Origin: Verrucomicrobiota bacterium
Lineage (GTDB): Bacteria; Verrucomicrobiota; Verrucomicrobiia; Chthoniobacterales; UBA10450
Reading direction: 5' to 3'
DNA length: 33,443 bases
Assembly (NCBI GenBank): GCA_003219435.1
Contig: QHOW01000023.1
Location: forward strand, 1 to 33,443
Shown here: positions 674 to 14,618 of the stretch, piece by piece
Layout of the letters: each line of letters starts with the position of its first letter
Position numbering within the stretch: the stretch's first letter is position 1
Translations under genes and position numbers: made by a program
The notes under the pieces: model-generated
Databases searched by the model: none
Told to the model about the DNA's origin: nothing
What the model saw: the letters and a program-made list of their open reading frames with translations, nothing else

Positions 674-1560
674 TGGAATCTCCGCGCATCGGCTGCGTCA
701 AATATCTCAACGCGCGGCCGCTGATTCGAGGGTGGCCGGGTGCGGTAGACTTCGACCATCCTTCGGCGTTGTGTCAGCGACTCGCGGCTGGCGAACTGGA
801 TATCGCCCTTGTTTCAAGCTTCGAATTTTTGCGCAATCCAATCTACCGGATCGTCGATGACGTTTCGATTTCGTCGGATGGACCGGTTTACAGCGTTGTA
901 GTCGCCCACCGTGTCGAAATGTCCGAGATCAAAGAAATCGAACTCGATCCTGCCTCGGAAAGTTCGGTAAATCTCCTGCGTTGCTTACTCGCGGAGATCG
1001 GATTGAATCCGTGGTTAATTTCAAACGGTGAATTTAGAAAAAGCGCGCAGCGCGACGTTCCGGGGAGCGCCCCGAAAGCTTTCGGGGCCGTTGCCGGCAG
1101 TCCGCCGCAGGACGAATTCGCCGTGGCGAACTTGTCGGCAACACCTAACGCGCGCCTCCTAATCGGCGATCAAGCCATCCGCTTCCGGCAGAGACATGCC
1201 GGGGAATTTAGTTTCTGGGACCTCGGCGAGCAATGGAACAAACTCGTCGATCTTCCATTCGTGTATGCACTCTGGTTGATTCGGCCTGAAGTTCGCGACT
1301 CCGAGTCCCTCGCGGAACGCTTGCGCAAGCTGCGCAATGAAAATCTAGCCGACATCGACAAGCTGGTCGCTGAAGAGGAAGAATTCGATCACGATTTTTG
1401 TCGCCGCTATTACCGGGAAAACTTGCGCTTCAGCTTTGGCAAAGAAGAAAAACAAGGGTTGACCGAGTTCCATAAACGCTGCTTGAACCTGCAGCTTTTC
1501 CCGGGCGGTGGTTTGGGATTTGGAGCTTGGGATTTGGAGCTTGCTAGTCGCTGCGTATGA
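673..1560 (+). CDS. mqnA: Chorismate dehydratase MqnA (menaquinone biosynthesis), with an in-frame palindromic insertion; apparent TTG start
   Basis: IGCVKYLNARPLIRGW, ALVSSFEFLRNP, DGPVYSVVVAHR, ARLLIGDQAIRF motifs; adjacent to mqnE. Confidence 0.85.
   Translation: MESPRIGCVKYLNARPLIRGWPGAVDFDHPSALCQRLAAGELDIALVSSFEFLRNPIYRIVDDVSISSDGPVYSVVVAHRVEMSEIKEIELDPASESSVNLLRCLLAEIGLNPWLISNGEFRKSAQRDVPGSAPKAFGAVAGSPPQDEFAVANLSATPNARLLIGDQAIRFRQRHAGEFSFWDLGEQWNKLVDLPFVYALWLIRPEVRDSESLAERLRKLRNENLADIDKLVAEEEEFDHDFCRRYYRENLRFSFGKEEKQGLTEFHKRCLNLQLFPGGGLGFGAWDLELASRCV
1041..1145 (+). repeat. Palindromic in-frame insertion within mqnA
   Basis: Perfect 20-nt palindrome GCCCCGAAAGCTTTCGGGGC (1069-1088), then a long imperfect palindrome GTTGCCGGCA...GAATTC...TGTCGGCAAC (1090-1142). 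It encodes a low-complexity stretch not expected in MqnA. Confidence 0.65.
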
Positions 1561-3047: not shown

Positions 3048-4805
3048 GTGCAAAGCCGCGTAGAGAGCGATCTAATCAGTGCAAAGCCGCCTGCAACCTT
3101 TGCGCGGCAAAGCCGATGGATCATTGCGCCGCCTGAGGAGTTGAATGGTGGACCGATCTCATGGACTGAGATTTGTGGATCGGCCTGCATCGCGCGGTTG
3201 CTAATGCGCAAGGGGTTCGCCAGCGCGGAAGAAGTGGAAACATTCCTGCGGCCGCGTCTCAGCTCGTTAAGCGATCCATTTTTGCTTCCGAATATGGAAA
3301 GGGCCGTGAAGCGAATTCTGGCTGCGTTAGACCCACAGGAACGCATCGTAATTTTTGGAGATTACGATGTCGATGGGGTGACTTCGCTCGCGCTGCTGGC
3401 AGAAATGTTACGTGCCTATGGCGCCACGCCGGACTTATTCCTGCCGCTGCGAATGGAGGAAGGCTACGGATTGAGCCGTGAAAGTGTGGATCGCTGCATT
3501 GAGCAACATCATCCGCAACTTCTGATCGCGGTCGATTGCGGCACGTCGTCGGTGGTCGAGATCGCCGATCTCACGGAGCGCGGCGTGGATGTGATTGCAC
3601 TCGATCATCATGAGCCCAAAGCGGATCTGCCTGGTTGCGTGGCAATAGTGAATCCAAAGATCAATCCGCAGTCGCCGTTTCATTATCTTTGCAGCGTCGG
3701 AATCGTTTTCAAATTGTGTCACGCGCTTCTTAAAACGCGTCCGGTCGAGTTCGATTTGAAGTCGAAGCTCGACCTTGTTGCGCTCGGCACTGTCGCTGAC
3801 ATCGTTCCGCTTCATGGCGAAAACCGCGTTCTCGTGCAGCGCGGCGCGATGGAGATCGCACGAACGTCGCGTATCGGCTTGAAGAAACTAATGCAAGTCG
3901 CCGGAGTACAGCTGCCCATTTTGCCCGAGGACATTGGTTACCGACTTGGCCCGCGATTGAATGCTGCGGGGCGTTTGAATACAGCGGAGAAATCTTTGCG
4001 GCTGTTGCTCACTCACGACGAAGGCGAAGCATCGGTACTCGCAGCGGATCTCGACCGGCACAATCGCGAGCGCCAGGAAGTGGAAAAGCAAATTTTCGAT
4101 GCAGCGATAGAGAAGATCGACAATCAGTTCGACGCAACGCGCGACGCGGCCATCGTGACAGGCGCGCGGGGCTGGCATCCGGGAGTGCTCGGCATTGTGA
4201 CCTCGCGGATCGTTCGAAAATATCATCGACCCGCCATTGTAATCGGCTTCGATGAGAATGGTGTCGGCAAAGGAAGCGGACGAAGCATTGAAGGGTTGAA
4301 TCTGGTCCAAGCGTTGAGTCGTTGCGCGGACCGGCTTGACAAATTCGGCGGGCACGAAATGGCGGCAGGATTGGCCCTGCGCGAGGAAAATTTCGACCTT
4401 TTTGCCGAAACATTTCGCAACGCGGCTCGCGATCTTCTCTCCGAAGAAGCTTTGCAACCCTGCGTGCAATTAGATTATGAGCTCGCATTTTCCGAAATCG
4501 ATATCGAGTTTCTACGGTGGCACGAGATGCTGCAGCCATTTGGAAACGGAAATCCCCAGCCGCTTTTCCTTGCGCGCAAAGTCGAGCCGGTGGCGCCGCC
4601 GCGCGTAGTGAACGAAAAGCATCTCATCTTTCGTCTCCGCCAAGGCAATCGCCATCGCCGCGCGGTTTATTTTAATGGCGCGCCAAATCAACTTCCGCTC
4701 GCGCCGTGGGACATCGCATTTCGGATTCGCGCGGATGAATATGAGGGCGAAACCTTAGTCGCCATGCAAATCGAAGGGGTGCGGACAGCGGAGCCCAGCC
4801 AATGA
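3048..4805 (+). CDS. recJ: Single-stranded-DNA-specific exonuclease RecJ (start codon uncertain)
   Basis: DHH motifs: IFGDYDVDGVTSLALLAEML, IAVDCGTSS, ALDHHEPKADLP, VALGTVADIVPLHGENR, GGHEMAAGLAL. Confidence 0.9.
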   Translation: MQSRVESDLISAKPPATFARQSRWIIAPPEELNGGPISWTEICGSACIARLLMRKGFASAEEVETFLRPRLSSLSDPFLLPNMERAVKRILAALDPQERIVIFGDYDVDGVTSLALLAEMLRAYGATPDLFLPLRMEEGYGLSRESVDRCIEQHHPQLLIAVDCGTSSVVEIADLTERGVDVIALDHHEPKADLPGCVAIVNPKINPQSPFHYLCSVGIVFKLCHALLKTRPVEFDLKSKLDLVALGTVADIVPLHGENRVLVQRGAMEIARTSRIGLKKLMQVAGVQLPILPEDIGYRLGPRLNAAGRLNTAEKSLRLLLTHDEGEASVLAADLDRHNRERQEVEKQIFDAAIEKIDNQFDATRDAAIVTGARGWHPGVLGIVTSRIVRKYHRPAIVIGFDENGVGKGSGRSIEGLNLVQALSRCADRLDKFGGHEMAAGLALREENFDLFAETFRNAARDLLSEEALQPCVQLDYELAFSEIDIEFLRWHEMLQPFGNGNPQPLFLARKVEPVAPPRVVNEKHLIFRLRQGNRHRRAVYFNGAPNQLPLAPWDIAFRIRADEYEGETLVAMQIEGVRTAEPSQ

Positions 4806-7579
4806 GCGAGTCTCGTAAAGAAAAAGTTTGTGACGGCGAGGGCGCCGTCACCAGCACGCGAGGCGCGTGCGCTCCCCAGATTGAAATCTCGCGGCCGCTC
4901 GCTGAGCTTGATTGGATCCCGCGACCGCGTTTACTCGCGCTGCGCCGTCTCGGCATCGAAACGGTGGAGGATTTGCTCACCCATTTTCCGCGCCGTCACG
5001 AAGATCGACATCAGTTTCCCCATTTTCCACGCGAAGAGAGCGACATTCCGATTTGCCTTTGCGGTGAGGTAGTTAAAACGTCGGTGCGCAGGTTTGGCGG
5101 ATGGAAAAAAATCTTTGAAGCGACATTGGAGGAGTCGAGCCCGAACGCGTTGAGCGAACCGCTCGTGTGCCGCTGGTTCAACTTGCATTACGTGCAAAAG
5201 ATGATCGCGACCGGGCAGCGCCTCGTCGTTTTTGGCAAACCGCGCCTGCGGGGCAAACGGATTTGCATGGATCACCCTGAGTTCGAGGTCATCGAGAATG
5301 ACGAGGAGATATCAATCCATTTTCGGCGCATCACGCCGATTTATCCTGCTACAGAAGGTCTTTCCCAGCGCGTCTTGCGCAGCATCATCTACCGCTTGTT
5401 GAATGAAGTCTCCGGCGCGCCTCTGGAAAAACTACTGCCAACCGACCTCGCGACTGGCGAACGATGTCATGCAATTCGCGCGATCCATTTTCCGGAAAGC
5501 TGGGAGGCGCGTGATGCCGCTCGCGAGCATCTGGTGCTCTCGGAGTTCTTCGCGATGCAAATGTTGATCGCATCGCGACGCTCCGACTCATCGATTCGAA
5601 TGGGCGACGCGCACTGCGGACCTGGCACTCTGCTCGACAAATTTTTAGAGGCGTTACCGTTCCAGCTGACTGGCGCGCAGTCGAAAGTAATCGCGGAAAT
5701 CCAGCGCGATCTGGCGGCGCGTCATCCGATGAACCGTTTGCTCCAGGGAGATGTGGGCTCGGGCAAAACCGTTGTTGCCATCGCGGCGATGTTGCTTGCG
5801 GTCGAAGCGGGGTATCAGGCCGCATTCATGGCGCCAACACAAATTCTCGCTGAACAACATTATGATGTGCTGCGGCGCTGGCTGGAACCCCTCGGCGTGC
5901 GCCTGGCACTGCGGACCGCGGCGCGCCAGGAAGACAACGTGCCGCTGCCGTTGTTTGCGGGTGCGCAGGATCCGGGTAGCGCACGCGTCTCACGTGTTGG
6001 CGACGGTGTCTCGCCGTCGCGGACTTTCCTTGATGTTGAGCCAGCTGACAGCGCTTTCTACTCTCGTCGTCGACTCCCGCATTTCGAAAAGCCGTGGGCG
6101 ATCTACGCGGTAACGATTAGCACGAAATCGCGTCGATGTTTGTCACCAAATGCTCGCACCATCGTTCTCGATGCATTCCGGCATTTTCACGACAAACGTT
6201 ACGAACTTTTTGCAGTATGCGTGATGCCCGATCATGTGCATCTACTGATTCAGCCGTGGCCGAAGGAAAATGACGATGCGGGAAACGTAGTTTTTTGGCC
6301 GCTCAGCGGCATAATACATTCGATCAAATCATTTTCGACGCACAAGATTAACAGGGTCGAACGAAAGAGTGGAACACTTTGGGAAAAGGAACGGTTTGAC
6401 CGTTACGTTCGATCAGATCGCGATCTGGAGGAGAAGTTCCACTACATTCTCCGCAACCCGTGGGAGACGGGCGTGGCTGGACAGAACGAGGATTATCCGT
6501 GGGTCTGGACTCAGGATGATGAGGCGCGCAAGGAAAGTTCGTTTCGGCGCGACGCCGAAACCAACACGCGGGACGCGTGCGCTACCCAGGCCGGGGCGGG
6601 CGATGGCGCTCCTCACATCATCATCGGGACGCACGCGCTGCTTTACGAAAAGGTTTCGTTCTCGAATCTCGGGCTCGTTGTAATCGACGAGCAGCACAAG
6701 TTTGGTGTTGCGCAACGCGCCCGGTTGACCGCGCGCGAACCAGCGCCTGATGTTCTGGTGATGACGGCCACGCCGATCCCGCGCACCCTGACGATGACGG
6801 TTTACGGCGACCTCGATGTTTCAGTTATCGATGAGATGCCGCGTAACCGCGGAAAGGTAATCACGGCTGTGCGCGACGTATCGAAGCTCGGCGAAGTCCT
6901 CAGTTTTTTGCGAGGACAATTGGAAACGGGGCGACAACTCTATGTGATTTATCCCCTGATTGATGAGAGTGAAAAATTGGACGTCAAGGCGGCATCGGCC
7001 GAGTACGAGTTGTGGCGGGAACAACTGCATCCCTATCGCTGTGAATTACTTCATGGCCGCATTCCGGCGGCGGAGAAGCAGAACACCATGGAACGATTTC
7101 GTCGGGGTGAAACGAACGCATTAATCAGCACAACGGTGATTGAAGTTGGGGTCGATGTTCCGAACGCGACGGTGATGCTGGTCGAAAATGCGGAGCGCTT
7201 CGGGCTGGCGCAGCTTCATCAGCTTCGCGGGCGCATCGGCCGTGGGCAGCACAAATCGTATTGCATCTTGTTAACGTCGGAGCAGTCGAGGGAAACATCG
7301 GCTAAGCTCGCTGTTTTGGAACGAACGAATAACGGCTTTGAAGTGGCGGAGGCGGACTGGGATTTGCGCGGCCCCGGCGATCTGCTTGGCACGGCGCAAA
7401 GCGGCTTACCCGCGCTCAAGATCGGCAACTTGAAAACCGATGCAGGCTTGATGCGACGGGCGCGGGCGGCAGCAATGTCGATTTTCCAAGCCGATCCGCG
7501 CCTGGAATTGCCTGAGAATCAACGTTTCCGGAGTTTGATTGTCGAACAACAGGGACGCACTTTTTCGAACATCAGTTGA
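4802..7579 (+). CDS. recG: ATP-dependent DNA helicase RecG, carrying an in-frame REP near the N-terminus and an in-frame RAYT-type transposase domain inside the helicase core
   Basis: RecG motifs: RLLQGDVGSGKTVVAIAAMLLAVEAGYQAAFMAPTQILAEQHY, IIIGTHALLYEKVSFSNLGLVVIDEQHKFGVAQRARL, VMTATPIPRTLTMTVYGDLDVSVIDEMP, ERFGLAQLHQLRGRIGRG. 4-nt ATGA overlap with recJ; single uninterrupted 925-aa ORF. Confidence 0.93.
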   Translation: MSESRKEKVCDGEGAVTSTRGACAPQIEISRPLAELDWIPRPRLLALRRLGIETVEDLLTHFPRRHEDRHQFPHFPREESDIPICLCGEVVKTSVRRFGGWKKIFEATLEESSPNALSEPLVCRWFNLHYVQKMIATGQRLVVFGKPRLRGKRICMDHPEFEVIENDEEISIHFRRITPIYPATEGLSQRVLRSIIYRLLNEVSGAPLEKLLPTDLATGERCHAIRAIHFPESWEARDAAREHLVLSEFFAMQMLIASRRSDSSIRMGDAHCGPGTLLDKFLEALPFQLTGAQSKVIAEIQRDLAARHPMNRLLQGDVGSGKTVVAIAAMLLAVEAGYQAAFMAPTQILAEQHYDVLRRWLEPLGVRLALRTAARQEDNVPLPLFAGAQDPGSARVSRVGDGVSPSRTFLDVEPADSAFYSRRRLPHFEKPWAIYAVTISTKSRRCLSPNARTIVLDAFRHFHDKRYELFAVCVMPDHVHLLIQPWPKENDDAGNVVFWPLSGIIHSIKSFSTHKINRVERKSGTLWEKERFDRYVRSDRDLEEKFHYILRNPWETGVAGQNEDYPWVWTQDDEARKESSFRRDAETNTRDACATQAGAGDGAPHIIIGTHALLYEKVSFSNLGLVVIDEQHKFGVAQRARLTAREPAPDVLVMTATPIPRTLTMTVYGDLDVSVIDEMPRNRGKVITAVRDVSKLGEVLSFLRGQLETGRQLYVIYPLIDESEKLDVKAASAEYELWREQLHPYRCELLHGRIPAAEKQNTMERFRRGETNALISTTVIEVGVDVPNATVMLVENAERFGLAQLHQLRGRIGRGQHKSYCILLTSEQSRETSAKLAVLERTNNGFEVAEADWDLRGPGDLLGTAQSGLPALKIGNLKTDAGLMRRARAAAMSIFQADPRLELPENQRFRSLIVEQQGRTFSNIS
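4817..4879 (+). repeat. Solo REP-like double-hairpin element inside the recG N-terminal coding region
   Basis: aaagaaaaagtttGTGACGGCGagggCGCCGTCACcaGCACGCGaggCGCGTGCgctccccag: two perfect hairpins (9-bp and 7-bp arms). Homologous to the ends of the 5974-6587 element; encodes KEKVCDGEGAVTSTRGACAPQ. Confidence 0.85.
5974..6031 (+). repeat. Left REP-like terminal inverted repeat of the RAYT element
   Basis: GGGTAGCGCACGCGTCTCACGTGTTGGCGACGGTGTCTCGCCGTCGCGGACTTTCCTT; contains hairpin GCGACGG/CCGTCGC. Confidence 0.9.
6530..6587 (-). repeat. Right REP-like terminal inverted repeat of the RAYT element
   Basis: Reverse complement reads GGGTAGCGCACGCGTCCCGCGTGTTGGTTTCGGCGTCGCGCCGAAACGAACTTTCCTT; hairpin GTTTCGGCG/CGCCGAAAC. 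Confidence 0.9.
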
Positions 7580-14604: not shown

Positions 14605-14618
14605 CCGAAAGCTTTCGG
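14605..14618. repeat. Perfect palindrome CCGAAAGCTTTCGG
   Basis: Direct reading; same core as 1069-1088. Confidence 0.6.

Follow-up and report, generated by a model that had tools for sequence, protein, structure and literature searches.

The usual view places REPs outside genes and treats RAYTs as single-copy genes lying between other genes. In-frame palindromes within genes are, for their part, already established in Opitutus and Rickettsia. Among GTAG types, intragenic REPs are most numerous in the verrucomicrobium Opitutus terrae, and two Xanthomonas species carry different REPs at about the same recB site (Di Nocera et al. 2013, PMC3733652). Rickettsia palindromic elements (RPEs) are described in PMC10969869, which cites Ogata et al. 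2000, as in-frame palindromes in protein-coding genes.

The locus considered here, a short and selfish-looking hairpin element, lies in the vitamin K biosynthesis gene mqnA of a soil Verrucomicrobiota genome (G000), within a 33,443-nt stretch of contig QHOW01000023.1 (the window). It resembles GTAG-tagged REPs and RAYTs, and the intragenic REPs of Opitutus (PMC3733652), in that the palindromes are short, have a foot like GTAG/GGAG, are numerous and partly paired, and occur in frame in genes of a verrucomicrobium whose genome also has RAYTs; here the foot is GGGGAGC at 1062, copy number is high and RAYTs are flanked by REPs. It differs from those systems in the reuse of one codon site of a metabolic gene by several unrelated palindromes, in nesting, and in the whole in-frame RAYT found in relatives. 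The likeness to RPEs lies in an in-frame palindrome giving a protein-coding gene an extra surface peptide, whereas RPEs are ~150 bp long, belong to Rickettsia and have no RAYT link in the text consulted. Inverted REP pairs of the REPIN kind (PMC3116915) also occur in the window genome, 51 of them convergent among the matches listed, but a REPIN consists of two inverted REPs ~100 nt apart, whereas in mqnA there is one REP only, its hairpins modified. The RAYT-bearing relatives resemble intein carriers in having a selfish domain in frame inside a core enzyme; Pfam detected VitK2_biosynth and Y1_Tnp only, with no splicing (Hint) domain, and, unlike inteins, neither RAYT nor insert shows any sign of removal from the protein.

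Reuse of one codon site by unrelated palindromes, nesting and a selection-maintained in-frame RAYT were absent from the literature searched, and no paper on in-frame RAYTs was found in that search, which covered few subscription journals. A hot spot in mqnA, nested elements and RAYTs kept in frame appear to be novel.

A nested palindromic composite in mqnA

The features of the gene and its insert are as follows.

673-1560, + strand: mqnA, the insert-bearing gene for chorismate dehydratase (295 aa, ORF 673-1557); Pfam VitK2_biosynth, E 1.7e-40; its fold matches the structures 7an8, 7ahr and 6o9a of that enzyme
1041-1145, + strand: stretch first singled out, codons missing from the nearest orthologs
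1062-1068, + strand: REP head GGGGAGC, from alignment with the recG REPs and model R1
1069-1088, + strand: first hairpin, a perfect 20-nt palindrome GCCCCGAAAGCTTTCGGGGC of a dispersed palindrome family
1090-1100, + strand: left arm of the second hairpin, GTTGCCGGCAG; the orthologous hairpin in G007 is GTTGTCGGCAGCTTGCCGACAAC
1101-1130, + strand: nested dispersed element TCCGCC...GGCGAA, 30 nt, inserted at AG^CTTG
1131-1142, + strand: right arm of the second hairpin, CTTGTCGGCAAC, from comparison with relatives
14605-14618, no strand assigned: second window copy of CCGAAAGCTTTCGG, a repeat of the 14-nt core

A preliminary description of the sequence had proposed an in-frame palindromic insertion at 1041-1145, and comparison with orthologs bears this out: between the anchors Cys104 and Ile164 the window copy has a linker of 180 nt, as against 84 nt in the nearest orthologs (G012, G022, G002, G003, G008 and G038), from the closest of which the insert is absent. 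The perfect 20-nt palindrome that it reported is present at 1069-1088, and so is the ~53-nt imperfect one, at 1090-1142 with its GAATTC centre at 1114-1119. A one-base offset between its arms hid the latter from a gapless repeat finder; its outer arms pair on folding (z -3.1, with 1/200 shuffles as good). A better description of the interval is an 11+12-nt palindrome (1090-1100 and 1131-1142), GTTGCCGGCAG^CTTGTCGGCAAC, opened at AG^CTTG by the 30-nt element TCCGCCGCAGGACGAATTCGCCGTGGCGAA. The insert is thus a nested palindromic composite, a REP-type element of head and two hairpins whose second hairpin is split by the 30-nt element. The best estimate of the element boundaries is 1062-1142; positions 1041-1061 are additional linker, shared in part with one relative, G011. 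All six frames are open across the insert.

Both parts recur elsewhere. In a census of repeats by pattern and model searches, the 14-nt core CCGAAAGCTTTCGG of the first hairpin was found in 23 copies in the 2.73-Mb draft genome, where ~0.01 would be expected and the core read backwards gave 0 matches. In long open frames it mostly occupies the frame reading PKAFG, as it does in mqnA. The 30-nt element has 11 copies in the genome, and in G010 and at other loci it also opens the first REP hairpin (CTGCCAG^CCTG). Across 37 contexts genus-wide, its junction falls at a palindrome (hairpin) axis in 30%, against 4% of controls; the contexts lacking such an axis mainly have G^CNTG in common. With the axis at the junction in only 30% of contexts, a rule that the element always enters hairpin tips was dropped.

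Genome-wide, CCGAAAGCTTTCGG palindromes (window 14605-14618, L026, L005, L038, L027) have variable yet complementary extensions and often sit inside ORFs; the palindrome is possibly terminator-like or mobile. The 3' end of mqnA (1501-1557) runs through a GGGATTTGGAGCTT-type repeat, giving the protein the tail GLGFGAWDLELASRCV, and looks like another repeat captured in frame. The spacer upstream of the gene (575-672) consists of GTGATCGGTGA/GTGAACAGTGA-like short repeats.

Shared architecture with the REPs of recG

Within 6 kb a second core gene, recG, has been invaded as well, as originally noted.

4828-4877, - strand: REP in recG with the same architecture, R1 61.5 bits
5974-6023, + strand: REP to the left of recG's in-frame RAYT, R1 59.3 bits
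6110-6388, + strand: RAYT (Y1_Tnp) domain in frame inside recG, PF01797
6538-6587, - strand: REP to the right of recG's in-frame RAYT, R1 64.8 bits

The suggestion that the mqnA palindromes form a different family from these REPs finds no support, because the mqnA REP shares the architecture of the recG REPs around the transposase. In relatives G006, G007, G026 and G014 the mqnA linker reads GGGGAGC-ACAGGCTGCCAGCCTGT-CGTGTCCGGCAGCCTGCCGGACACG or near forms (the head is GGGGACC in G014), and the recG REPs of the window read GGGGAGC-GCACGCGCCTCGCGTGC-TG-GTGACGGCG... The two sets align without gaps over 50 columns, with the same head (GGGGAGC or GGGTAGC in every aligned element but one), a 17-nt first hairpin and then a second hairpin, all hairpin lengths being equal. 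The arms differ in sequence while complementarity is kept: 22 cells of the alignment changed on both sides of a pair, a number reached in 0/500 shuffles.

A covariance model, R1, was built from this alignment of relatives' mqnA elements and recG REPs. Its three best matches in the window are the recG REPs, and the mqnA insert comes next, at 21.6 bits (E 0.003), where E-values are rough and the training set partly consists of orthologous mqnA elements; the score is this low because both hairpins of the window copy have been altered by further palindromes. Genome-wide, R1 recovers at least 150 REPs (E <0.03), and among the matches listed 102 are arranged as 51 convergent pairs at spacings of 49-136 nt, against 0 divergent ones, which is the REPIN layout. 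Whereas REPs are paired elsewhere in the genome, the window mqnA copy is single, without an inverted partner. The genome also has 12 PF01797 matches, and the RAYTs in recG and metH have R1 REPs to their left and right. At one further locus (L142, C315) LemA and TPM domains share an uninterrupted reading frame that runs across a REP; read-through of this REP may have fused two neighbouring genes.

The mqnA linker as a hot spot

The comparison set comprised fifty-odd mqnA orthologs at congeneric and family level, all from drafts or metagenome bins, in which single-contig errors are possible, yet the patterns recur in independent bins. Linkers range from 66 to 180 nt in the first ortholog set, where their length is a multiple of three in 48/48, and the same holds for 27/28 in a further set (75/76 together); distant outgroups have linkers of 66-108 nt. 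Folding against shuffles gave mixed z-scores (G006 -4.7, G001 -4.8, G020 -7.0, G014 -0.9, G026 -0.5) that do not on their own separate elements from native linkers, and element types were therefore assigned by sequence, model R1 and genomic copies, with degraded linkers and type II remnants judged by eye.

On this basis, the mqnA linker is a hot spot in relatives of Ca. Udaeobacter, with at least four palindrome types. Type I REPs occupy it in G006, G007, G026 and G014, and type I with the nested 30-nt element in the window genome, G001, G010 and G011. Type II (GTAGC-ACAGGCATCTTGCCTGT-...) is found in G030 and G032, whose R1 matches are weak (E 0.008 and 0.19). Type III (~105 nt), which has no sequence kinship with type I and is dispersed in 18/35 congeneric genomes, occurs in G020 and G013, with remnants in G037 and L229. 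The linker of G025 holds another palindrome and that of L217 a 27-nt hairpin with perfect arms. The sisters of G020 and G013 (G024 and G031; 100% support) lack type III at this site, and a separate clade has it, so that at least three apparent gains or transfers are required.

Type I insertion replaced part of the native linker, since a REP of ~50 nt brought a net gain of 24-33 nt; no target-site duplication was definable at the mqnA inserts. One bin, G022, contains two different mqnA genes (L056, L076), one with a linker identical to that of G006, and this second copy is probably bin contamination.

An AlphaFold2 model of MqnA (mean pLDDT 81, pTM 0.79) keeps the chorismate dehydratase fold, with 7an7, 7an9, 7ahr, 2nxo and 6o9a as the best structure matches. 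Its only stretch with pLDDT <50, residues 125-153, is the insert, which thus falls in the sole low-confidence loop. The model supports a translated, disordered and tolerated loop in an MqnA that is presumably active.

RAYTs inside mqnA and other core genes

In three soil genomes (L231, L235 and L242; Verrucomicrobia bacterium AV106, AV12 and AV114) the mqnA linker extends to 841-921 nt and contains a RAYT (PF01797; HUH motif NHVHAL) flanked by two direct type III copies, which are 87% identical in L231 and 96% in L235. In these two the mqnA-RAYT-mqnA frame is open throughout, with 539 and 523 aa between stops, respectively; L242 loses this frame close to where the insert ends. No mqnA other than the RAYT-bearing one was found in the three genomes. 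The RAYT within mqnA is under purifying selection, its dN/dS of 0.08-0.13 being near that of MqnA (0.05-0.08) at dS 0.34-0.58. Other RAYTs of the same genomes share at most 53% identity with it and likewise lie within long open frames (600-1342 aa).

The window genome has RAYT (Y1_Tnp) domains in frame inside recG (window 4802-7579), metH and carB (loci L103/L132, C205, and L105, C88). In metH the domain lies between S-methyl_trans and Pterin_bind, and in carB between the two CPSase halves.

The RAYT families at mqnA (type III) and at recG differ. It is tempting to view the RAYTs of Ca. Udaeobacter and its relatives as long-term in-frame passenger domains of core genes (mqnA, recG, metH, carB), expressed and selected within the host protein; the palindromes at the same sites would then be solo copies or footprints, and the mqnA linker a repeatedly used, permissive docking site. 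The chances of this broader proposal being right or wrong seem about equal. Nesting, the hot spot and the whole RAYT at the same site in relatives all go beyond the preliminary description.

Origin of the insert

The insert is very probably mobile DNA, a palindromic element of REP type that landed in frame in a surface linker where MqnA tolerates it and that afterwards gained further palindromes. Dispersed parts, REP architecture, and varied elements and RAYTs at one linker together indicate that the linker is a recurrent landing site. RAYT (HUH) enzymes would move REP-type elements as single strands, and either a solo element or a complete RAYT unit would arrive at the linker, keep the frame, and then decay or be replaced. 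Only insertions of 3n length without stops would survive, and the insert would be translated as a disordered loop in an MqnA that stays active.

The route by which the composite reached the window genome is a separate matter, compatible with that explanation: a relative such as G001 or G011 may have donated it with an mqnA segment through homologous recombination. With the inserts of G001 and G011 the window insert shares 87-89% identity, against ~63-82% for the flanking gene (DNA), and the full composite was not found at any other locus in the genus. In the C-terminal half of MqnA, G000 groups with the insert-free G012 and G022, and a grouping of G000, G001 and G011 is rejected (AU p ~1e-6); the N-terminal half does not reject that grouping (p 0.41), but its trees are weakly supported and G000 with G012 and G022 is not rejected either (p 0.105). 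For the C-terminal half, accordingly, a whole-gene history with one origin for the window insert and its counterparts in G001 and G011 is rejected. Two courses of events are possible: an mqnA segment was exchanged by recombination, or the insertion is old and the C-terminal half was replaced afterwards. Arrival by recombination appears evenly poised.

It is improbable that the palindromes are instead there as a structure under selection in the mqnA mRNA, namely a hairpin with a regulatory or stabilising role that happens to code. Several linkers do fold better than shuffles (G006, G001 and G020), yet sister species differ in sequence, length and type, several relatives have no hairpin, and every part of the insert recurs elsewhere in the genomes. 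Somewhat less credible still is translational bypassing, in which the ribosome would skip the inserts and yield a protein without the extra residues, although stable hairpins inside a coding region recall the bypassing elements of yeast mitochondria. The 3n lengths in both ortholog sets and the open RAYT-bearing inserts of 867-921 nt count against it, because skipped DNA would require neither. The view that a disordered, GC-rich linker has simply varied in length, with palindromes arising by chance, can practically be dismissed: outgroups without repeats also vary in linker length, but the copy numbers of the 20-nt palindrome's core (23 against 0.01 expected) and of the nested element (11) exclude it.

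Implications

In an enzyme of an essential pathway, a single codon site has thus been filled by no fewer than four types of palindrome; in relatives it also carries an intact in-frame RAYT under purifying selection. Within this one gene the site can be seen empty, with a solo element, with a nested element, with a whole transposase unit and with a decayed remnant. Such a natural series allows direct tests of how REP/RAYT systems choose their targets, survive in frame and become domesticated. mqnA is a natural test case of mobile DNA living in essential genes without breaking them.
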